A stretch of 64,000 nt of DNA, from positions 62,001-126,000 of the forward strand of contig JAIRVP010000015.1 of assembly GCA_031253835.1 (NCBI GenBank), given 5' to 3'. Source of the DNA: Burkholderia sp. GTDB lineage: Bacteria; Pseudomonadota; Gammaproteobacteria; Burkholderiales; Burkholderiaceae. The notes beneath the pieces are model-generated. The model had not been told where the DNA came from. It did no database searches and saw nothing but the letters and a program-made list of their open reading frames with translations. The position numbers and the translations under genes are program-made. Below are positions 5,402 to 56,676 of the stretch, piece by piece (position 1 is the stretch's first letter; each line of letters starts with the position of its first letter).

Positions 5402-5528
5402 CGTTTTCGAAACATCGTTTCAAGAGTTTAACCGGCAACGATGTTTCGCGCAGTCTCTCAGGTTCTAGCACGGCCCTCGGAATGGCTAGAACTTTTTTAG
5501 CGCCACGGTCTCCGTGGCGCTTTTTTTT
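5402..5528 (+). ncRNA. Candidate small RNA with three stem-loops
   Basis: A non-coding stretch of about 127 bases on the plus strand between two minus-strand genes. It holds a perfect 12-bp stem (CGAAACATCGTT at 5408-5419 with its complement at 5437-5448, 17-base loop), a second stem (GTTCTAGC at 5462-5469 with GCTAGAAC at 5485-5492) followed by six T, and a third stem at 5499-5521 followed by eight T. With the promoter-like pair upstream this has the layout of a free-standing small RNA. I do not recognise a known family. It overlaps the 5' leader region of the IclR gene in antisense, so it could also act there. Confidence 0.5.
5499..5528 (+). terminator. Rho-independent terminator
   Basis: Stem AGCGCCACGG (5499-5508) pairs with 5512-5521 around a three-base loop and is followed by a run of eight T. 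The T-run lies on the plus strand, where no protein gene precedes it, which supports a plus-strand transcript ending here. Confidence 0.8.
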
Positions 5529-36101: not shown

Positions 36102-36128
36102 TCAGAGGGATGGCGGCGAAATCCGTAC

Positions 36129-36226
36129 GCTTCCCTGCGCTGGCATTATCCAGATCAGGTTCAAAGGGTATTTCTCACCCGCAATGCCGGTTATTTGACC
36201 GAGCGCATTGCAGGACCCCCGCGTTA
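36129..36226 (-). ncRNA. TPP riboswitch (THI element)
   Basis: Minus-strand RNA shows the THI landmarks in order: GCGGGGGTCCTGC, GGGTGAGAAATACCC, TTTGAACCTGATCTGGATAA and a closing CCAGCGCAGGGAAGC. Binding of thiamine pyrophosphate should reduce thiC expression. Confidence 0.93.
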
Positions 36227-36438
36227 GCAAGGGCACACGATACACCGGCTTTGCGGCGGTTTCAACCTGGAACGGATCGGATGCCGCCGGGCGATCGCCG
36301 GATCGTCGCCTGCGAACCGGGCAGGGTGCGCCGCAGCAATGGCGGCTGCCGGACGGCTTGCCGGCCGGGCCGGCAAGGGCCGAGCGGTGCAGCATTCGCG
36401 TCTTCATTTCTGGCGTCTAGAATTTTTTTTGACACCGC

Positions 36439-48120: not shown

Positions 48121-49233
48121 TTACAGTGCGACGAACAGCATGCCGTGCGGATCCTGAAGCGCCGACGCGTTGCCGACGCTCGTCGCGATCGGCGTCAGGT
48201 GGCCGGTCTTCGGATCGAGTTTCATGACCTGACCCTGGCCGGCACTGTAGGCATCGCCCTGGTTGAACGCGGCGTCGACGCGGTAGGTCGTGTTGCTCGC
48301 GTCGGTGAACAGCATGAAGGTCTTGTTCTGCGGCCCGGGCGTCGGCACCCAGCGCGTATCGTCGACCGGATACACGGGGCCGTCCTTGTCGTTGAAGAGC
48401 GTGAGCGTCAGCACGCTGACGCTCTGGCTCGCGCCCGGATTGTGAATGAACACGAGCTTGCCGTCGGCCTGGCTGTCGAGGACGAGATCGCCGGCCGTAT
48501 CGATCGCTTCCGAATCGGGGTCCGTCAGGCTCAGCGTGACCGGCTGGTTGTAGGTCGGGTTCGTCGAACCGCCGACCGACGGTGTGAGGTCGGTCGCCTG
48601 TGCATTGCCGGCCAGCACCGGCGCGACGTCGAACGTCGTGCCGTTTGTGTTCAGCGTGAGCTGGACGACCGTCGGTGCGGCGCCCGGCGTCGCCGGGTTC
48701 GATGCGCTCACGTAGACGTTCCCGTTGAGCAGTTGCATGTCGTCGAAGCCGCCGCCATGGGCGGTCGGATTGACGGTCGGTGCATAGGTCTTCTGCGTGC
48801 CGGCCTTCAGGTCGATGATCGTCAGCTCGGGATTGCCGTCCTCGTTGGCCATCGCCCACAGCGTGCCGGTGTCGGCGCGCGCCATCAGGCCGTCGACGTG
48901 ACCCGGCACCGTGTAGGTCTTGAGCACGTTGCCGCTCAGGTCGTATTGCACGACATCGTTGGTGAGCCCCGGGACCGAACCGTCCTTCACGTCGCCGGAT
49001 TTCTGGTAGCCGATGAAGATCGTGTTGTCGAACTGGACGATCGAGTCGGGCTTGTCGGTGGAGGTCGGTGCTTTCGCGAACACGGACAGCGAGTAGCCGG
49101 ACGCGGTGGCGGTGTTCGGTACCGCAGCCGTGTTGGCCGGTGCGACACCGGGGGTAGAAGTTGCATCGTCTCCGCCGCATGCCGCAAGAAAGACCGATGC
49201 CGACATCGCAATTAACAGAGGCTTTCTAAACAT
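48121..49233 (-). CDS. Beta-propeller lipoprotein of unknown function
   Basis: 370 residues. Signal peptide with lipobox FLAAC followed by GGDD, so acylated and probably retained in the inner leaflet or periplasmic face. The rest is a repeat-rich beta protein (IVQFDNTIFIGYQKSGD, LMARADTGTLWAMANEDGNPELTIID, FMLFTDASNTTYRVDAAF) consistent with an NHL/SMP-type propeller that may bind a small ligand or act as a lactonase-like enzyme. No catalytic residues are recognisable by eye. Single gene. Confidence 0.8.
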   Translation of the reverse strand: MFRKPLLIAMSASVFLAACGGDDATSTPGVAPANTAAVPNTATASGYSLSVFAKAPTSTDKPDSIVQFDNTIFIGYQKSGDVKDGSVPGLTNDVVQYDLSGNVLKTYTVPGHVDGLMARADTGTLWAMANEDGNPELTIIDLKAGTQKTYAPTVNPTAHGGGFDDMQLLNGNVYVSASNPATPGAAPTVVQLTLNTNGTTFDVAPVLAGNAQATDLTPSVGGSTNPTYNQPVTLSLTDPDSEAIDTAGDLVLDSQADGKLVFIHNPGASQSVSVLTLTLFNDKDGPVYPVDDTRWVPTPGPQNKTFMLFTDASNTTYRVDAAFNQGDAYSAGQGQVMKLDPKTGHLTPIATSVGNASALQDPHGMLFVAL

Positions 49234-49673
49234 TTCGTTTTCCTGAATAGATGATTCGTGCCGACCGAATCGGGTTATATATTTCCGCTGGTTACATGGG
49301 CGCGAGTCAGGCTAAGGCGCATATATTTCGTTTCGGTGAAAAGAGGCGGGAACGCGCGACGCGCGTCGGGCAAGGCCGGAGGCCGTATCACGGCGTTGCT
49401 TAAGGCCGGCTTAACGCGCTGCGCCGATTCGACTCGCATGTCGAAAATCAGCTTGAAATCGTGAATGTGTGACGGTAAGCGCAGGTGCCGGCATCAGGCG
49501 AAATCAATGCCTTTCATTTTCCGGATGCAAGGCGCGGGTCGCCGGGCGCATGGTCGATCGGGCAAGCCGGCATCGGTGCCGTTGCGCGGTAGCGCGCGAC
49601 CGATCCGGCGTCGGGCGACCGGGCAATTGAGGAAGAGGGGCGCGAGCAATGGTAGAATCGCGTCCGCCCTCTT
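49234..49673. other. Non-coding gap with the tRNA promoter
   Basis: About 440 bases between the divergent lipoprotein gene and the tRNA. A TAGAAT -10 box at 49653-49658 lies 16 bases ahead of the tRNA; the best -35 (TTGAGG at 49627) is 20 bases away, longer than usual. Nothing else is seen. Confidence 0.5.
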
Positions 49674-49708
49674 GCCGGGGTGATGAAATTGGTAAACATA
49701 GCGGACTT

Positions 49709-49962
49709 AAACGATTGAGTGCCCGGCCGGAAACGGTCGGTGCAGAACCCTTCAAATTCGGTGAAACCCCTGATGCGCGCATCGAGGCAACGCCGAGCCA
49801 AGCTTCGCGGTTTTCGCGAGGAAGGTGTAGAGACTAGACGGGGGGCGCCTAAGGCGCACGGGCAGCGGTCACGCCCGCGCGCGACGGTGAAGGCATAGTC
49901 CAGCGCACGAACGGTTACGCTTACGCTTACGCGACGCCGGCTTTGAAAGAAGCAGTGTGACG
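49709..49962 (+). ncRNA. Group I self-splicing intron (254 nt)
   Basis: Core signatures are visible: the R region GTAGAGACTAGACGG at 49827-49841 and the S region AAGGCATAGTCC at 49890-49901, which pair as P7 (GACTA with TAGTC); a short P8-like hairpin GCGCC-TAA-GGCGC between them; and CCGAGCCAAGC near 49793-49803 as the P/Q side. The intron ends in G (position 49962) and exon 1 ends in T, which can form the required G-U pair with GAGT at 49716-49719 in the guide. Short, with no endonuclease ORF. Near the 3' end TTACGC is repeated three times (49915-49932). The insertion point is that of cyanobacterial and plastid tRNA-Leu(UAA) introns. Confidence 0.92.
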
Positions 49963-49991
49963 AAAATCCGCCGCCTTAACTGGCTTGCCGG

Positions 49992-50007
49992 TTCGAGTCC
50001 GGTCCCC
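49992..50007 (+). repeat. attL: tRNA-derived direct repeat
   Basis: TTCGAGTCCGGTCCCC within the tRNA 3' exon, identical to 56623-56638. Confidence 0.8.
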
Positions 50008-50047
50008 GGCACCAAGTAATGTTCCGAGTAGTTCCGATGTGATCCTG

Positions 50048-50083
50048 AAACCCGCTGCAGCGTAAGGCTGAGCGGGTTTTTTT
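50048..50083 (+). terminator. Terminator after the tRNA
   Basis: AAACCCGCT (50048-50056) pairs with 50071-50079, with an inner GCAGC/GCTG pairing, and ends in a T-run. A similar AAACCCGC stem occurs outside the far end of the element. Confidence 0.8.
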
Positions 50084-50128
50084 GTTCCGTCTTGTTGCGG
50101 AGTTGTGCGTAGACATCCGGTGGTATGG

Positions 50129-50146
50129 GGTGGCATTTTTGGTGGT
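50129..50146 (+). repeat. Arm-type repeat, left copy
   Basis: GGTGGCATTTTTGGTGGT, differing at one base from the copy at 56550-56567. Such GGTGGTATTTTTGGTGGT sequences flank P4-type integrase genes and are probably integrase arm sites. Confidence 0.6.
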
Positions 50147-50187
50147 TCTTGGTCAAATTCAAGGTAGTTCGTTCAAGGGATACCACC

Positions 50188-50214
50188 ATGCCGCTTACCG
50201 ATACACAGGTTAGA
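50188..50214 (+). pseudogene. Remnant of a P4-type tyrosine integrase gene
   Basis: ATG 50188 is followed by codons for MPLTDTQVR, the usual first residues of P4-like integrases, with the matching upstream repeats. After this the integrase sequence stops and unrelated sequence follows. No tyrosine-recombinase domain is present. Confidence 0.65.
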
Positions 50215-50227
50215 CGTTCCCGACTAC

Positions 50228-50422
50228 GTGCAAGCTTTCTGTCGACTGAACAGCCGCGACGGCGCACTCGGACTGTGGGCGGATTTTCAAGGCTACGCGG
50301 TGCGTGGCGGTCATCGGTTCGCGGCCTCGGCATGGGACAAGCCCGCGGCGGAGAAACTGTTCGGCAGGTTCGTAAGTGCTGGATTGGCGCAGACGCATGG
50401 AGCTGAGAAAGAGGCGGCGTAA
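50228..50422 (+). CDS. Small phage-type ORF, possibly truncated
   Basis: GTG 50228 to TAA 50420-50422, 64 residues (VQAFCRLNSRDGALGLWADF, then GYAVRGGHRFAASAWDKPAA). The frame is open upstream (LDVPDYVQAF) into the integrase remnant, and no good ribosome-binding site is near, so the 5' end was probably removed by the same deletion that cut the integrase. Function not recognised. Confidence 0.45.
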   Translation: MQAFCRLNSRDGALGLWADFQGYAVRGGHRFAASAWDKPAAEKLFGRFVSAGLAQTHGAEKEAA

Positions 50423-50636
50423 TCGACGCCCCTCTGCAAACTGCTTTTGCTTGCCGTCTACCTCGACGCCGGTCGATCGGGGTTGCCGATCGAGAAAAAC
50501 GCCCGGATTCGACATATCCCCGCCCGCTGCGCCGTTCGCGTGCCGCGGCTAATGGGGCGGGTTGGAATGGGCGCCACCGACGGCTCGTAGAGGGCGCGAA
50601 CAGCAGAATCCAAAACCCGCTGTTAAAGGAGTCGAA

Positions 50637-50810
50637 ATGCGGAATAGGCCAATCGCCAATGATCGACGCATCGCCGATCGGGTAACCGGGATCGTTGAAC
50701 GGCTCGTTCGAGCCGCGTTCGCATGCATGCCCGCTGATGAGGCGAGCAGGTTCGCGAAGCAACTCATCTTCAAGATGCACCGGCTGCGCGACGAGGTTCG
50801 TGCGTCCTAA
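50637..50810 (+). CDS. Small phage-type protein, 57 residues
   Basis: ATG 50637 follows AAAGGAG at ideal spacing. The product (MRNRPIANDRRIADRVTGIV, with PADEASRFAKQLIFKMHRLR) is basic and helical, without membrane segments. Function unknown. An open frame starting at 50562 is not needed. A 9-bp perfect hairpin (50815-50839) without T-run follows. Confidence 0.6.
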   Translation: MRNRPIANDRRIADRVTGIVERLVRAAFACMPADEASRFAKQLIFKMHRLRDEVRAS

Positions 50811-50950
50811 TCGCTGCGGCAGTGAACGAAACTGCCGCACGAAAGTTTGTGGCGTCCGAAATGTGATTTGGCTAGATTTCGTTCATTCCTGGGAGGCGTG
50901 ATCGAATCCGTCCAATGTCGTGCAGTCCCGGACGTCGCGAACGAACCAGT

Positions 50951-50987
50951 AGCGCCCACACGCTAGACGTGCTGGGCGCTTTTTTTT
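50951..50987 (+). terminator. Rho-independent terminator
   Basis: AGCGCCCA (50951-50958) pairs with 50973-50980; eight T follow (50980-50987). Ends the transcript of the small phage-type gene before the next one. Confidence 0.8.
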
Positions 50988-51009
50988 GTTCAATCGAAAG
51001 GAGCATTGA

Positions 51010-51510
51010 ATGTCGCAGGAAACCGCAACCGAATCGAACGTTGCAGACCATGTAGCGAGCGCCTGGAACGAAGTGATCCGCGCTCGCAGCCACCATCAAG
51101 CCGTGTTGGACGAAATCAGGTCGACGACCCGTGATTTCCACGAAGCTCACCGTGCCGCGCATCGTGCGCGGGAGCGATCGGCAGGATCCGAAGAGATTCG
51201 GCAGGTCGACGCCATCGTATCTGCCGCGTCTCAAAAGCTCACTGCGTTGCAAGCCGATCAACGAAATGCAGAGATCGCGGTGGCGACGGCCGAGATTACA
51301 CACGGTAACGCAGGGAAAATGCAGGTACACGTCGATCGAGAACGTGCGTCCACCGATTCTCGGACACTGCTCGCGGAGTGGAATGCTCTGATCGACGCGA
51401 ACCGAGATTTACTGACCACGGTTACCATCTTTTGCATGGTGGACAGAGTGCGGGCGCTGCACGAAACGGAGCGGTTGCGTGCATGCTCAGAATGGGTGAA
51501 CGAAAAATAG
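51010..51510 (+). CDS. Coiled-coil protein of unknown function
   Basis: 166 residues from ATG 51010, preceded by AAAGGAG. Almost wholly helical with heptad-like runs (EVIRARSHHQAVLDEIRSTT, then SQKLTALQADQRNAEIAVAT), no signal or membrane segment. I do not recognise a family. It sits directly before the serine recombinase gene in the element; the 65-base gap holds repeated TTTCGTTC/ATTCGTTC words. Confidence 0.6.
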   Translation: MSQETATESNVADHVASAWNEVIRARSHHQAVLDEIRSTTRDFHEAHRAAHRARERSAGSEEIRQVDAIVSAASQKLTALQADQRNAEIAVATAEITHGNAGKMQVHVDRERASTDSRTLLAEWNALIDANRDLLTTVTIFCMVDRVRALHETERLRACSEWVNEK

Positions 51511-51575
51511 GGTTGACCTATTTCGTTCGGAGCGTATGATTCGTTCATCCATTTCGTGCACCCAAGGGGCCAAGT

Positions 51576-52163
51576 ATGTCGCGCACGTTCATTTATGCCC
51601 GCGTCTCTACCGCCGAGCAGACGCCAGAAAACCAAATTCGCGAGATTGAGACGGCAGGCTTCGCAGTCGACCAGGACAAGCGTAAGCAGCGGATCGTTTC
51701 TGAGTGCATTAGCGGTAGTGTGGCGGCCAGTGAGCGCCCCGGCTTCTCGAAGCTCTTGGACCGTATGGAGTCGGGCGACGTGTTGATTGTGACCAAGCTC
51801 GACCGCCTAGGACGGAACGCAATGGATGTGCGTGCCACTGTCGAGAGATTGGCGGCGGATGGTGTTCGGGTGCACTGTTTGGCGCTCGGTGGCGTCGACC
51901 TGACAAGTAGCGCGGGAAAGATGACGATGCAGGTCTTGTGCGCTGTCGCGGAGTTTGAGCGCGATCTACTTATCGAGCGCACACAAGCCGGGCTTGCTCG
52001 TGCGAAGGCGGAAGGCAAGGTGATGGGGCGCCCGTCAGCGTTGACCGCGGAGCAGCAAGAGGACGTGCGCAGTAGGCTTGCGCAGGGAGCTACAGTGTCG
52101 GATCTTGCGCGCGTTTACAAGACGAGCCGCACGACGATTCAGCGTGTTCGCGATCGTGCGTGA
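51576..52163 (+). CDS. Serine recombinase, resolvase/invertase type
   Basis: 195 residues. Catalytic serine in YARVSTAEQ (residue 11), with the arginine-bearing [11 protein letters not shown] and KLDRLGRN motifs and [20 protein letters not shown] helix E, then a C-terminal helix-turn-helix ([20 protein letters not shown]). This size is that of Tn3-resolvase and Hin-like enzymes. No transposase is adjacent and no invertible segment was found, so its role may be to resolve dimers of the element or be residual. Confidence 0.9.
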
Positions 52164-52216
52164 ATAATCATCATACAATAGGGCGGTAACACTGACCGAC
52201 ACAAGGAGTCATTGCA

Positions 52217-53143
52217 GTGGATACCGCGCGCGACAAACATACCCTCGAATTGGTTGAGGCCGAAGAGCTGTGGAATATGGCCACAGTCGATCAAGACGGG
52301 TACATATGCCCAGGATGCGAGACGAGCGTATTCCCCGCGTCATACGACAAACAGAAGAACAAGAAGCGCCCGTATTTCACATTAGGCCCGACCAATAAGC
52401 ACGTGCCCGGTTGCGACGTGGATGGTGAGGAGAAAGTTGTTAAGCGGGCGAAGAAAGAACGCGTAGGCACGCCCGAAGGGTTTCCGCTTCCGTTTCCGAA
52501 CAGATTGACGCTGACTGACGAGCGTCCGGTTGTTCCTGGCGGTGAAGGGAATCTGCCGACTGTGCAAGGTCCGGTGCGGACTGGTAGTCGGACGCGGGCG
52601 GGAAGCGTGGGGGCCGGGCATCACGGGCACACGGTAAAAACTATTCGTCCAGCCTGCCGAGCATTTATCAACTACCCGCACGATCGCGGACACCTGCCGT
52701 TTTCGATTGATGATGTTCCGGGGAAAACTTACGCCGAGGTATTCTGGTACTTGCGCTCCAAAAAGCCAGAATATTTTGACTCTCCAAGACATCTTTACTA
52801 CGCGACGATACGCTGGAAATCTGAGCCTGTCGTAGCAGACTCACATTGTGAGTTGACGCTCAACGTTGGGGAGTGGGATGCAGCAAAGAAAGCGCACAAG
52901 AGTCTCTCGCGAGTCCGGGTGGATTGGTCGAATTGGAGTCAAACGCGTCGCGATTCACTCATCAGAGAGTTTGAGGCGACTCGAAATGAAGCTGCGGAGC
53001 AAGCCAAGACAAGTAGTGACGTAAAAGGCTGGTTGTTTTTTGTTGGCACACAGGACGCCGAAGATCCTGAGGTGTTCCACGTCGACAATTATCGACTGAT
53101 CTGTTGTCTGGCTGCCGATCTGGTATGGCCTTCAAGGTCGTAA
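52217..53143 (+). CDS. Unknown protein with N-terminal zinc-finger-like motif
   Basis: 308 residues from GTG 52217, with AAGGAG eight bases upstream. Cys31, Cys34, His62 and Cys66 (YICPGCETS ... KHVPGC) form a CxxC-HxxxC zinc-binding pattern similar in spacing to the N-terminus of CoiA-like proteins. A linker of basic and Gly-rich sequence follows, then a compact alpha/beta region from about residue 150 (FINYPHDRGHLPFSIDDVPG ... LTLNVGEWDAAKKAHKSLSR). Codon use is less GC-rich than the chromosome. It could bind nucleic acid; no family assigned. Confidence 0.65.
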   Translation: MDTARDKHTLELVEAEELWNMATVDQDGYICPGCETSVFPASYDKQKNKKRPYFTLGPTNKHVPGCDVDGEEKVVKRAKKERVGTPEGFPLPFPNRLTLTDERPVVPGGEGNLPTVQGPVRTGSRTRAGSVGAGHHGHTVKTIRPACRAFINYPHDRGHLPFSIDDVPGKTYAEVFWYLRSKKPEYFDSPRHLYYATIRWKSEPVVADSHCELTLNVGEWDAAKKAHKSLSRVRVDWSNWSQTRRDSLIREFEATRNEAAEQAKTSSDVKGWLFFVGTQDAEDPEVFHVDNYRLICCLAADLVWPSRS

Positions 53144-53170
53144 GGTAAGCATTCCGGCCGCGCTGTTGGC

Positions 53171-53449
53171 TCATGGGCGGGATTGGCGTAGCCCGCAAAG
53201 CTGGTCCCGCTCCTTCACAGCCACGGCGCGCCGTTTGTCTATGTAGTCTGCCAAGTCCTGCACGTACACGCCGCGCGTCGACTTTTGACTCGACTCGATC
53301 TTGACCACTGGAATAGAGATTTCGCCGAGCGCAATCTTTCTAAGCATTGCATTAAATTCCAGGTGCGGGAAATATTCTTTGCGAACATCATCCAATGGAA
53401 TGATGGCGCGTGCCCCAAATTGAGCCAGAAGCAAAAATACCGTATTCAT
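53171..53449 (-). CDS. PrtN-type pyocin/prophage activator, copy 1
   Basis: 92 residues. Opens MNTVFLLLAQFGARAIIPLD, with VRKEYFPHL and a following VQDLADYIDKRR, matching the pyocin activator PrtN family, which turns on late prophage or pyocin genes. It lies 33 bases after the second copy, in the same direction. About half the residues are identical between the two copies by eye. Confidence 0.8.
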   Translation of the reverse strand: MNTVFLLLAQFGARAIIPLDDVRKEYFPHLEFNAMLRKIALGEISIPVVKIESSQKSTRGVYVQDLADYIDKRRAVAVKERDQLCGLRQSRP

Positions 53450-53481
53450 CTGTATTCGGCGGAAGGTTATTGTTAGATTAA

Positions 53482-53751
53482 TTAAAATATCGTCGCATTT
53501 CGCTGTCGTTCTTTTTCAGCTTCCTCGCGTCGCGAATCGATGTGGATGGCTAAATCGATCATATAAATTCCCTTTGCTGTCTTTTTGCTTGCCTCAATAC
53601 GTAACACCGGTAATGGGATTTCCCCGTGCACAAGCTTTCGGACGAACACCTGAGGGTCTAAGTGGTTGAAATATTCTTTGCGCACTTCGTCGAGTGGGAT
53701 CGCTGCGCGTGGGCCGAACTGCGCCATAAGGAAAAAGAGCGTGTCGGTCAT
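53482..53751 (-). CDS. PrtN-type pyocin/prophage activator, copy 2
   Basis: 89 residues (MTDTLFFLMAQFGPRAAIPL, VRKEYFNHL, MIDLAIHIDSRREEAEKERQ). Same family as the next gene downstream, so the pair arose by tandem duplication or is a divergent pair acquired together. Located just downstream of two direct repeats that may be operator sites. No pyocin or late phage genes remain in the window for it to activate. Confidence 0.8.
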   Translation of the reverse strand: MTDTLFFLMAQFGPRAAIPLDEVRKEYFNHLDPQVFVRKLVHGEIPLPVLRIEASKKTAKGIYMIDLAIHIDSRREEAEKERQRNATIF

Positions 53752-53802
53752 TTTCTCGTTGCTCGATGGTGAAACCCACTTGATGCCATCGATGGTGTAA
53801 TG

Positions 53803-53868
53803 GTTGATATTTGCTACCTAATTGGTTGCCGGTCGCGCGTGATTTTGTTGATATTGCTACCGAATTGG
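53803..53868. repeat. Paired direct repeats upstream of the prtN genes
   Basis: GTTGATATTTGCTACCTAATTGG-like copy at 53803-53825 and a near copy at 53847-53868 (one base shorter, one substitution), start-to-start 44 bases. Spacing of about four helical turns suggests two operator or activator sites on one face of the DNA. Confidence 0.65.
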
Positions 53869-53957
53869 GATTAATGAGACGCTGCGAAAATATCGCTTGT
53901 AAACGCTTATTCGTGCAATTACAATTGACTCATCGCTGAAACAGCAGCGATTCGAGC

Positions 53958-54182
53958 TTGGCCGCTCGATATGCAAAAGGCGGACTTCCGCCGCTCGGCG
54001 GATTTTTTTGTCCGTATGCCTTCGCGTGCCTTTTTCAATGGCGGGCCCTGGCTGAGGGGACACCTTCGGGTGTGCCGGGTTCCTTTTGCCCCGGTCGGCC
54101 AACCCTAAAGCCTTGCGCCCGCCACCTCCATCTTGGCCGATGGAGCGCGGGTTTCGAAACCGCAGCAAAAGGAGGCTTTACC
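53958..54182 (+). other. Ash-like reading frame fused in frame ahead of the next gene
   Basis: An open frame from TTG 53958 encodes KGGLPPLGGFFCPYAFACLF and EGTPSGVPGSFCPGRP, which resemble the Ash/Icd-like leader frames of P4-type phages, and continues without a stop into the downstream gene. The DNA itself carries hairpins (GGCGGACTTCCGCC) and a T-run. Whether it is translated or is a regulatory RNA is open. Confidence 0.5.
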
Positions 54183-54635
54183 ATGCGCCAGTTCAACCAA
54201 AACCAGTCCGCCCAATCTGCTGCCCGCGGCATCGTCGGTGTAGCGAAGGGCCGCGGCGTCGGCCGCGCCGCAGAATTTGACGTGAACATGTATATCGGCA
54301 TCCCCGCCGAGGTTCGCTCGCTTCTCAATGTTCCCGGTGTGGATCGCACTGAAGCCTGCAACATCGGTGCATTGTGTGCTGCGTTGCTTGCCAAGCATTT
54401 GCGCGATGAGCCCGCTCTGGCCGGTAGCAACCGCGTCGGCGCCGTGATCGAGCGGATGAAGGGGTTGGGCGGCGAAGGCGGATACGAGGCCGGGCTCTTC
54501 GCCGTGCTCGAACACCTGATTGTGGAGGGGGTGAAGCACGTCAACCCGGACACGCTCGCGATTCGGTCGCTGGCGGCCGTGGCGCGAGCCCGGACCGCAA
54601 GAAGACGTGAGGACGCTGCGGAACTTCACATCTGA
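54183..54635 (+). CDS. Phage-type protein linked to Ash/Icd-like frame
   Basis: 150 residues from ATG 54183, which follows a near-perfect AAGGAGG. The product begins MRQFNQNQSAQSAARGIVGV and contains MYIGIPAEVRSLLNVPGVDR, a helical middle and a basic C-terminus. Frames of this kind are often annotated as Icd-like host cell-division inhibitors, but I see no domain that proves such an activity. The upstream frame is in phase, so a longer form could be made. Confidence 0.65.
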   Translation: MRQFNQNQSAQSAARGIVGVAKGRGVGRAAEFDVNMYIGIPAEVRSLLNVPGVDRTEACNIGALCAALLAKHLRDEPALAGSNRVGAVIERMKGLGGEGGYEAGLFAVLEHLIVEGVKHVNPDTLAIRSLAAVARARTARRREDAAELHI

Positions 54636-54715
54636 ACTTGTTTTCGCGCGGTGGGCGATAGAAGAGGTTGGGGTTCGGCCGCGCGCGGTCTCGCCCCCTT
54701 CGATCTGAGGGATCG

Positions 54716-55216
54716 TTACAGACGTGGACCGATTGTCTTCCTGAAATCGAGGAAGGGGGTGAGGAAGGTTTCCAGTCTAAGCAGCCCTTGATCGCCGCCA
54801 ATCCAGAAATAGTCGTTCTGCTGCTGTTCGAACCATTCGCGGGCCTCGTTTGGACTGCCTTCGCGGAGCCGCTTCTTGTAAGTCTTGTATCCCATGATGC
54901 GGGCGGCCCTAGTATGCATTTCCTCCAGAATGCTCACTATCTCACTGTCTTGACCGAATAGAAATCGCGACTCTCGCATCGCTTTGACGAAAGCGCGGTG
55001 GGCTTCCTGATGTTGTTCGTTGGCTTCGTCGTAGCTCGACAACACATGGTAGAAGTCGATCGACGCTGTATAGACGCCGAATCGTCGATCGTAGAGATCG
55101 AGCCGAAGCTTCTCGCGGTTCGTTCGATGCTGCTGATACGCGATCCAGGCTACGTACGCGCTTATCAGGATGGTCGGGAGCGCGGTTATCAATGAGGTGC
55201 TGTTGGCGGAGGTCAT
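54716..55216 (-). CDS. Single-span membrane protein of unknown function
   Basis: 166 residues. One N-terminal membrane helix (LITALPTILISAYVAWIAYQ), then a basic, helical cytoplasmic domain (HRTNREKLRLDLYDRRFGVY ... DQGLLRLETFLTPFLDFRKT). Proteins of this plan are frequent in mobile elements and some defence loci, but no catalytic motif is visible. Transcribed toward the Icd-like gene. Confidence 0.65.
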   Translation of the reverse strand: MTSANSTSLITALPTILISAYVAWIAYQQHRTNREKLRLDLYDRRFGVYTASIDFYHVLSSYDEANEQHQEAHRAFVKAMRESRFLFGQDSEIVSILEEMHTRAARIMGYKTYKKRLREGSPNEAREWFEQQQNDYFWIGGDQGLLRLETFLTPFLDFRKTIGPRL

Positions 55217-55341
55217 GTCTCGCGACTGTGCCGTGGGCTTGGCTTTGATGCGTTGTTAGGGCTTCTGAACTGTTGGGGCTGACGTTGGTTCACAGGGGTG
55301 TTGGGTTACGCAGAGTGGGGCTGGCGCGTTTGCTAAAACCG

Positions 55342-55893
55342 CTATTGCCAAGACCCGACGACTGAATCGCTGTCGTTTCCGTGGCCGCCGCCCGTGCTGA
55401 ACACATCGATTTCCCCGTGCGTACCTGGGTTGCGATATTGGTACGGGGCGCCCCACGGATCCGGCGGCATGCGTTCAAGGTATCCGCCGGCCTTCCAATT
55501 GACCGGCGCCGGTTCGGTAGTCGGCTTCTGCGCGAGTGCGGCTAGACCTTGGTCTTGCGTCGGGTAGCGGCCGTTGTCGAGTCGGTACAGCTTGAGCGCT
55601 TGCATGATCGTGCCGATGTCCTGCCGGGCGGCGACTCGGCGCATTTCATCCTTCCCATTGCTTGCCGTTATCTGCGTCGCAGCCGCTGCCGCGTTGATGC
55701 AATTGGGATCGTCCTTAAGTTGACCGGGATTCGAGCCGCACTCGGAAAGTGCCCGGCTGAGAGCGTCGCGGTTCACCATGAATTCGTCGACCTTCATCAC
55801 GCGATCGAGTCCGGGGACTTGGGTTCGATTGCACGCGGTTAGCGTGACCGTGAGCAAGACGGCGAGTGACGCCGCTTTGAGAGTGGTTCTCAT
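55342..55893 (-). CDS. Lipoprotein with EexN-like N-terminus and GspG pseudopilin-like C-terminus
   Basis: 183 residues from ATG 55893. A lipoprotein signal with lipobox LTAC (Cys21) precedes an EexN-like segment (KVDEFMVNRDALSRALSECG, PNCINAAAA), known from entry-exclusion lipoproteins. From about residue 105 the chain matches the globular C-domain of the type II secretion pseudopilin GspG (ALKLYRLDNGRYPTQDQGL, GYLERMPPDPWGAPYQYRNP, EIDVFSTGGG). The prepilin peptidase site and N-terminal hydrophobic helix of GspG are absent, so it cannot assemble as a normal pseudopilin. Likely a periplasmic, calcium-binding-like domain tethered to a membrane. Confidence 0.75.
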   Translation of the reverse strand: MRTTLKAASLAVLLTVTLTACNRTQVPGLDRVMKVDEFMVNRDALSRALSECGSNPGQLKDDPNCINAAAAATQITASNGKDEMRRVAARQDIGTIMQALKLYRLDNGRYPTQDQGLAALAQKPTTEPAPVNWKAGGYLERMPPDPWGAPYQYRNPGTHGEIDVFSTGGGHGNDSDSVVGSWQ

Positions 55894-56058
55894 GTGATGG
55901 TCTCGTATACGTGTTTTTGTATTGCTGCGCGTGGGAAACGATACCTTCAACTAGCCCGGTATACCGCCGGAGTCGATATGCATCGCTCGTATGGTACCTT
56001 TAGACCGTACGATCATTCGGGTAGATGTTGACGATGGCATGGGCTTGGGGAGGCCGCC

Positions 56059-56532
56059 GTGACCGAGCAGGTAAATCCGGAGTATGTAAGAGCCGTTCGA
56101 CAAGCGTTAGTCGAGTGGCGAGAAACCTTTAACGATGGATTCCAAGCATGGATTCTCGAAACTGTCAAAACGCTTGCAATAATTAACAGTGCGGGGCTTG
56201 CTGGCGTCGCTGCGATTTTTGCGAGCGACGGCACGGCCAAATTGATACTCGGCCGGTATCCATCAGCCGCGCTATTCGCGCTTGGTCTAGCCGCGGCAGT
56301 CGTGGATATGTATTCAAATGCGCGCGGCAATTTGGCACGCGAGAGGGAAATCATACAACGCATACGTCAGTTCGACCGACGTGAGCTGGACTGCCGAAAC
56401 GCGCTCGACGACGTGCAAGGCGGGAAGGTTGCCTTCACCGTGGCATCCTGCGCGGGTTGGTTGTCCGGCGCCGCATTTCTCGCAGGTGCTTTGCCCTTCA
56501 TCCGCGCTGCGTTGGCGCCGCTGATTTGCTAG
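56059..56532 (+). CDS. Multi-span membrane protein of unknown function
   Basis: 157 residues from GTG 56059 after GGGGAGG. Three or four membrane segments (about 36-54, 66-86 and 125-152: TLAIINSAGLAGVAAIFA, AALFALGLAAAVVDMYS, TVASCAGWLSGAAFLAGALP), with a charged helical stretch between (ARGNLAREREIIQRIRQFDR). Last gene of the element before its right end. Unknown function. Confidence 0.6.
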   Translation: MTEQVNPEYVRAVRQALVEWRETFNDGFQAWILETVKTLAIINSAGLAGVAAIFASDGTAKLILGRYPSAALFALGLAAAVVDMYSNARGNLAREREIIQRIRQFDRRELDCRNALDDVQGGKVAFTVASCAGWLSGAAFLAGALPFIRAALAPLIC

Positions 56533-56549
56533 CGCAGGGGCCAGCCGCT

Positions 56550-56567
56550 GGTGGTATTTTTGGTGGT
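56550..56567 (+). repeat. Arm-type repeat, right copy
   Basis: GGTGGTATTTTTGGTGGT, 17 of 18 bases identical to 50129-50146 and in the same orientation. Confidence 0.6.
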
Positions 56568-56622
56568 ATCTCTTGTGCAGAGGACTTCTCTGTACCCATT
56601 GGGGTTGAGGTTGCTAGGTTTA

Positions 56623-56638
56623 TTCGAGTCCGGTCCCC
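56623..56638 (+). repeat. attR: duplicated tRNA 3' segment
   Basis: TTCGAGTCCGGTCCCC followed by ACCA; identical over 16 bases to 49992-50007 in the tRNA. The GGC that follows in the tRNA is missing here. Confidence 0.8.
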
Positions 56639-56676
56639 ACCACGATCGCTTTCATTGCGATTCGACGACGGTTCAA

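Follow-up and report, generated by a model that had tools for sequence, protein, structure and literature searches.

Here, we describe a tRNA-Leu(UAA) gene of a Burkholderia sp. that is interrupted by a 254-nt group I intron. The gene lies at 49674–50014 (+) of the window, by which we mean the whole 64,000-nucleotide stretch of DNA that was analysed. With introns allowed, ARAGORN places the intron (49709–49962) between U34 and A35, which gives the exon junction gactt/aaaat. The best explanation of the locus, with a probability of roughly 0.9 on sequence evidence, is a small self-splicing tRNA-type group I intron that has been passed on vertically in Burkholderia. Judged by its sequence, the intron represents a betaproteobacterial line, inherited over a long time, within the tRNA group I introns already known, and not a recent cyanobacterial import.

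A split tRNA-Leu(UAA) gene in Burkholderia

The original prediction had joined exons at 49674–49708 and 49963–50014 into one tRNA, and ARAGORN recovers the same coordinates; a betaproteobacterial host with a group I intron at the U34/A35 site is likewise borne out. The parts of the locus are as follows.

49653–49669 (+): conserved TAGAAT (49653–49658, probable −10) and the next bases, upstream of the tRNA
49674–49708 (+): 5′ exon of tRNA-Leu(UAA), acceptor strand to U34 (ARAGORN, introns allowed)
49705–49720 (+): P1, formed by the 5′-exon end and the intron guide sequence; the U·G pair 49708/49717 lies at the 5′ splice site
49709–49962 (+): group I intron, 254 nt (ARAGORN, RF00028 match, comparative structure)
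49721–49743 (+): P2 with GAAA loop at 49730–49733; double-sided changes at 8/9 pairs, GAAA in 40/40
49748–49753 (+): P3, 5′ strand, partner 49840–49845; 99.6% of cells paired, double-sided changes at 5/6 pairs
49758–49825 (+): P4-P5-P6 domain, with P4 at 49758–49763/49791–49796 and P6 at 49798–49799/49824–49825 (covariation alignment)
49832–49836 (+): P7, 5′ strand (R element), partner 49896–49900; 100% of cells paired, double-sided changes at 3/5 pairs
49840–49845 (+): P3, 3′ strand (covariation alignment)
49846–49889 (+): P8 with CCTAAG and, opposite, GACGG; 99.4% of cells paired
49896–49900 (+): P7, 3′ strand (S element) (covariation alignment)
49904–49959 (+): P9.0 (49904–49908/49955–49959), P9.1, and P9 with GAAA loop at 49945–49948; GAAA in 36/40
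49915–49932 (+): TTACGC repeated in P9.1, three times here and no more than twice at this place in the 51 other genus loci compared
49962 (+): terminal G of the intron; G in 40/40 aligned introns
49963–50014 (+): 3′ exon of tRNA-Leu(UAA), A35 to CCA (ARAGORN, introns allowed)
50048–50083 (+): terminator-like stem AAACCCGCT/AGCGGGTTT with T run, 3′ of the tRNA (by eye)

The intron holds no listed open reading frame of 80 or more amino acids, and its P9.1 arm may have grown by tandem TTACGC copies. Of the 105 loci with a 5′ exon that fits the search pattern, a count in which some genomes appear twice, 102 have the TAGAAT element within 40 nt upstream; a strict promoter scan found nothing. The stem at 50048–50083 is absent from the terminator scan, which covered loops of 3–8 only.

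The split gene was overlooked by the default tools run here. Default ARAGORN reported 0 tRNAs in the window, an Rfam scan at gathering score returned nothing at 49674–50014, and none of the 51 genome matches of the Rfam tRNA model falls at the split locus. A covariance search, which the original prediction had proposed as a check, did recover the intron: an E-value scan of 651 bases with cmscan matched RF00028 (group I intron) at 49699–49924 with 39.0 bits (E 2.1e-8), although this lies below the curated gathering score of 50. We read the sub-threshold score as low sensitivity of RF00028 for such introns rather than as non-membership. Across 120 family genomes, RF00028 matched above its cut-off in only 10 and missed genomes with known introns (for example, G089). 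Since RF00028 was too insensitive as a survey tool, we built a model of our own, R1, from 37 related introns including that of the window, which it scores at 128.4 bits.

Comparative structure of the intron

We aligned 40 introns from several bacterial groups that occupy the same site, 37 in tRNA-Leu(UAA) and three in tRNA-Leu(CAA). The structure comprises 57 pairs in 12 helices, from P1 to P9 with the P3/P7 pseudoknot, and 95.9% of its cells are paired, compared with 31.0–42.0% when the partners are slid by 1–3 columns. As the structure was drawn on the window sequence, this measure favours it over the slid versions; the double-sided changes, found at 38 pairs against 22.4 expected from shuffles, are independent of the drawing. 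None of 500 shuffles reached any of five structure measures. Pairing and covariation in this alignment rule out a chance fold. Membership in the group I core is seen in P3 (99.6% of cells paired), P7 (100%) and P8 (99.4%), each with double-sided changes.

The pairing of R and S sequences anticipated in the original prediction corresponds to P7, which we take to be the guanosine-binding helix, and forms in all 40 introns. Also as anticipated, the intron ends in G and follows T: the terminal G is invariant (40/40) and the preceding base is T in 37/40 and C in 3/40, always opposite G. Accordingly, the 5′ splice site is a U·G pair in 37/40 introns and C-G in the three Leu(CAA) rows, and the window copy has both the U·G pair and the terminal G. 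Loop L2 is GAAA in every row and L9 in 36/40. P8 starts with CCTAA in 31/40 rows and with CCTAAG in 17/40, with TATGG opposite in just 5/40. These P8 letters resemble the 11-nt GAAA receptor; the GACGG of the window differs from the receptor, and an exact receptor match is often missing in other rows too.

GAAA loops on P2 and P9 and a simple P5 are observed here, a pattern that would fit subgroup IC3. Thermodynamic folding is uninformative for the precursor: its minimum-energy fold has no exceptional stability (z −0.91), and 18 of 100 shuffles reach the same or a better energy. The fold is accepted because of the comparison across introns.

Distribution of the intron

A survey of the site across Burkholderia, suggested with the original prediction, returned a full-length match (341 bases, 80–100% identity) in 65/65 genomes of the genus. 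Of these 65 genomes, 52 were retrieved, and ARAGORN recognises the intron in every one of them; many named Burkholderia species are among the pattern loci. Trinickia symbiotica and Paraburkholderia tropica also bear an intron, of 315 nt and 275–277 nt, respectively. Some match is found in 363 of 398 sampled family genomes, many to the tRNA ends only. By an exact pattern, which misses diverged genes, an uninterrupted gene is present in 79/200 family genomes; in other genera, neither the intron-bearing nor the uninterrupted form is seen in many genomes. The pattern loci number at least 118, among them 18 uninterrupted genes, three unclassified loci and two probable plastid contaminants. The last two (L172 and L173) lie on MAG contigs labelled Lactobacillus and Clostridia, with an intron-bearing tRNA-Leu(UAA) next to tRNA-Phe; L172 also carries interrupted tRNA-Val and tRNA-Met. 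We take this tRNA order to be that of plant plastids, and plant plastid contamination of the bins is probable.

With R1, tRNA-type introns were found in 60/120 family, 33/200 order, 43/229 class and 20/249 phylum genomes, under strict filters that lose weak matches. The 120 family genomes hold 79 matches: 53 in Leu(UAA), 10 in Leu(CAA), 15 in CAU tRNAs and one unclassed. Classes were assigned by ARAGORN on retrieved loci and otherwise by full-length DNA match (for example, G146, G162 and G167); four of the 15 CAU rows were classed by eye against the ARAGORN label. Beyond the family, Leu(UAA) introns are carried by Niveibacterium, Brevundimonas, Kiloniella, Maricaulis, Bradyrhizobium and Spirosoma, among others. 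The original prediction had regarded the site as the classical cyanobacterial and plastid one. Nine cyanobacterial introns do share it, but the site is also occupied in Alphaproteobacteria and Bacteroidota.

Related introns sit in other tRNAs. Introns of Leu(CAA) genes occupy the same position with C before the 5′ splice site (L116, L118, L121, L127, L129, L182, L293, L366, L376, L407, L408, L411, L428 and L455, with L293 and L366 being one place). Many of their hosts also carry the Leu(UAA) intron. Related introns in family genomes are found in Thr UGU (L123, L130 and L133) and Arg CCU (L134) genes, and L133 and L134 belong to the genus Burkholderia itself. Elsewhere, ARAGORN assigns such introns to Asn, Asp, Tyr, His and Lys tRNAs, with some of these labels probably wrong.

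History of the intron

We built a tree of 81 introns; eleven distant rows were dropped before the approximately unbiased (AU) test. Forty-eight rows form one set (support 100/99), made up of 32 Burkholderia-type introns, four Leu(CAA) introns and 12 further Leu(UAA) introns of betaproteobacteria, a few or more of which belong to the same family. Because the Leu(CAA) introns lie inside the betaproteobacterial Leu(UAA) set, a spread from the UAA to the CAA leucine tRNA is suggested. At the 24 of 32 genus loci that have the neighbouring LacI gene, intron distances follow the distances of that gene (r 0.40, a value reached in 38 of 5000 permutations). The original prediction had inferred either an independent insertion or a horizontal transfer; as an event of the Burkholderia lineage, neither is supported, given the genus-wide presence, the agreement with the LacI neighbour, the grouping with introns at the same site in other betaproteobacteria and the rejection of a clade with cyanobacterial introns (below). 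The intron is not recent, because its full-length match is found in all 65 genus genomes.

Intron-bearing and uninterrupted genes coexist within genera g11, g15 and g20. In g20, a LacI-type regulator (Pfam) and further upstream genes flank both intron alleles (G116, G174, G332 and G263) and uninterrupted alleles (G083, G212 and G160), while the intron locus of G143 and the uninterrupted locus of G188 are without this shared neighbourhood. In a tree of the neighbouring gene, three uninterrupted g20 alleles form one group among intron-bearing relatives, with weak support for the join (0.27), and loss in sublineages is the simpler reading than gain. Repeated independent insertion at the same site in different genera, in place of one old intron followed by losses, would account for this patchy presence, and movement between sites does occur, as related introns in Leu(CAA), Thr, Arg and Ile2 tRNAs indicate; one betaproteobacterial Leu(UAA) intron, L182, also falls among alphaproteobacterial ones. 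We nevertheless consider it unlikely, given that all but one of the 49 Leu rows from the family and from other betaproteobacteria fall in one well-supported set and that the uninterrupted g20 alleles group together, weak as their join is.

One could also place a single intron at this site in the common ancestor of proteobacteria, Bacteroidota and cyanobacteria, kept ever since, which would fit the insertion site and the type of P1 that all four groups share. The sparse R1 matches in order, class and phylum, spread over many tRNA sites, and the long branch that sets the cyanobacterial introns apart speak against such an ancestor, which we regard as somewhat less probable still. A recent acquisition of the intron by Burkholderia, through horizontal transfer from cyanobacteria or plastids, would fit the insertion site, which is that of the nine cyanobacterial introns, but is rejected by the AU test: a clade of the 32 family rows with the nine cyanobacterial rows has p 1.6e-5, with a warning from the tool that long branches meet in the tree, one of which separates the cyanobacterial and plastid introns from the rest. 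Two cyanobacterial Leu rows, moreover, have CCCTAA or CCCTAG with GAGGG in P8, in contrast to mostly CCTAA with xAxGG in the other introns; together with the presence of the intron in every genus genome, this leaves the transfer a very low probability. An old intron, inherited within the betaproteobacteria and lost in some lineages, is the reading that we prefer.

Relation to known tRNA introns

The cyanobacterial and plastid Leu(UAA) introns share with the Burkholderia intron the gene, the U34/A35 position and the kind of P1 and core. They differ in forming a separate branch of the tree, in their P8 letters (in the two rows compared) and in their Rfam scores, which are 59.1–94.2 bits for nine cyanobacterial introns against 39.0 for Burkholderia. 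Another counterpart is the tRNA-Leu(UAA) intron of the gammaproteobacterium Pseudomonas SMCC D0715, which Vepritskiy et al. reportedly described in 2002 as 231 nt long with a P8 motif of the CCUACG...UAUGG type. By this description, it would resemble the Burkholderia intron in its proteobacterial host, tRNA, length and type of P8 motif; it comes from a single isolate, whereas the Burkholderia intron is genus-wide.

Azoarcus carries an intron in tRNA-Ile2(CAU), and Agrobacterium one in tRNA-Arg(CCU). Introns of the tRNA-Ile2(CAU) type are likewise small betaproteobacterial tRNA group I introns with related cores by R1, but they interrupt another tRNA and many are inserted after U33, not U34. 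Related cores are found by R1 in Arg(CCU) genes as well, again in another tRNA and at another site. A passage of the tRNAscan-SE 2.0 paper places tRNA-Ile2 introns in Acidovorax and Burkholderia (PMC8450103), and another source has a split tRNA-Arg in Asaia, in a passage that does not give the anticodon (PMC4596401). Our literature search, thin on subscription journals, returned no description of a tRNA-Leu(UAA) intron in Burkholderia, and the available parts of PMC3984707 and PMC4033280 make no mention of one.

Genomic surroundings

The tRNA 3′ end recurs at window 56623–56643 as a near copy of 21 nt (90%), and a resolvase, a PrtN-like pyocin activator and a C4 antisense RNA are encoded in the interval 50014–56643. 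On account of the near copy and of these genes, an element is probably lodged at the 3′ end of tRNA-Leu(UAA). Elsewhere in the genome, 26 nt of the tRNA end are repeated exactly (G000:C32:42178-42203). In another genome, a second tRNA-Leu(UAA) 3′ half with other upstream sequence lies about 8 kb from an uninterrupted gene (L132, G209:C2:1548701-1548752) and may represent the distal end of an element inserted at the anticodon loop. A further fragment, like the intron 3′ end plus 3′ exon, is located about 7 kb from a full gene (L137, G035:C1:1742559-1742630).

Upstream, a 370-aa open reading frame without Pfam match (window 48121–49233, −) separates the LacI-type regulator from the tRNA; in the relative L338, about 180 bases lie between the end of the regulator and the tRNA. 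Rfam also marks the Burkholderia sRNA ncS54 at window 5451–5528 (+) and a TPP riboswitch at 36114–36230 (−).

The split gene as the probable reader of UUA

The split gene is the only UUA-reading tRNA found in this draft genome of 83 contigs and about 95% completeness. The original prediction had called this an essential decoding tRNA and proposed a count of other tRNA-Leu(UAA) genes; an exact-pattern search of the genome found no uninterrupted one. We inspected 13 of the 51 tRNAs given by the Rfam tRNA model, namely the 12 of at least 82 nt and one odd one. Among them are leucine tRNAs with anticodons CAG (three), CAA, UAG and GAG (two), and none with UAA. The odd match (L043, G000:C23:68266-68338) is tRNA-like, with 35.7 bits from the Rfam tRNA model, no ARAGORN call and an unusual anticodon arm. 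The 12 long-armed matches include no tyrosine tRNA; the tRNA list is therefore incomplete, and a second tRNA-Leu(UAA) copy could lie in an assembly gap.

By exact pattern, none of 23 genus genomes, several of them in 2–4 contigs, has an uninterrupted tRNA-Leu(UAA), nor does any of the 53 family genomes classed as carrying the Leu(UAA) intron. That the interrupted gene is a dead copy, with UUA read by another intact tRNA, is accordingly rejected as very improbable: the draft assembly and its incomplete tRNA list leave room for it, but those 23 genomes show no intact gene by that pattern, and splice-site bases and exon ends are conserved throughout the 52 genus genomes retrieved out of 65.

Codon usage points to a small task for this tRNA. 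Among 103,035 codons of 284 GC3-filtered open reading frames (464 kb of the genome), TTA is the rarest, at 0.21 per 1000 and in 20/284 frames, counts that the GC3 filter lowers. ATA is second rarest, and TTG, read by Leu(CAA), is 25th rarest. As TTA is the rarest codon, the load on tRNA-Leu(UAA) is probably small, and this may explain why a slow maturation step is tolerated. A low load is not required for an intron, since other, busier tRNAs of the class carry them. We also considered codon rarity as a rule for intron sites and did not adopt it, with TTG only 25th rarest and introns in genes labelled Tyr, His, Asp, Asn and Lys.

Proposed model of tRNA-Leu(UAA) maturation and its significance

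Because the intron belongs to the group I family, we infer a two-step splicing reaction, with self-splicing and use of the spliced tRNA. The precursor would be transcribed and the intron would fold into its P1-P9 core. Guanosine bound at P7 would then attack after U34, at the U·G pair of P1, and the freed 5′ exon would attack after the terminal G. Joining of the exons would yield mature tRNA-Leu(UAA), the sole UUA reader found in the genome. As for its past, the Leu intron branch would have been present early in the family and exactly lost (less likely gained) in several lineages, and its betaproteobacterial Leu(UAA) branch would have given rise to the introns at the same site of tRNA-Leu(CAA).

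Streptomyces has in bldA a switch that is a tRNA-Leu(UAA). In Burkholderia, the rate of intron removal, set by free GTP and magnesium, might gate translation of the few genes that bear TTA. Such a gate is conceivable because TTA is the rarest codon of the sampled genes and no tRNA for it was found other than that of the intron-bearing gene; we hold it to be quite improbable. As a self-splicing counterpart of bldA, it would explain why the intron is kept in 65/65 Burkholderia genomes and lost in related genera.

The split gene is common to all Burkholderia species examined and is thus an old feature passed down by inheritance, not a recent oddity. It extends the story of the tRNA-Leu(UAA) intron beyond cyanobacteria and plastids, adding a separate branch in the proteobacteria. 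The exact intron-bearing and uninterrupted alleles at one locus within genera offer natural material for studying the cost and the loss of an intron, and the idea that a self-splicing tRNA limits the reading of a rare codon becomes testable. A whole, well-studied genus seems to need a self-removing RNA within the tRNA for one sense codon.
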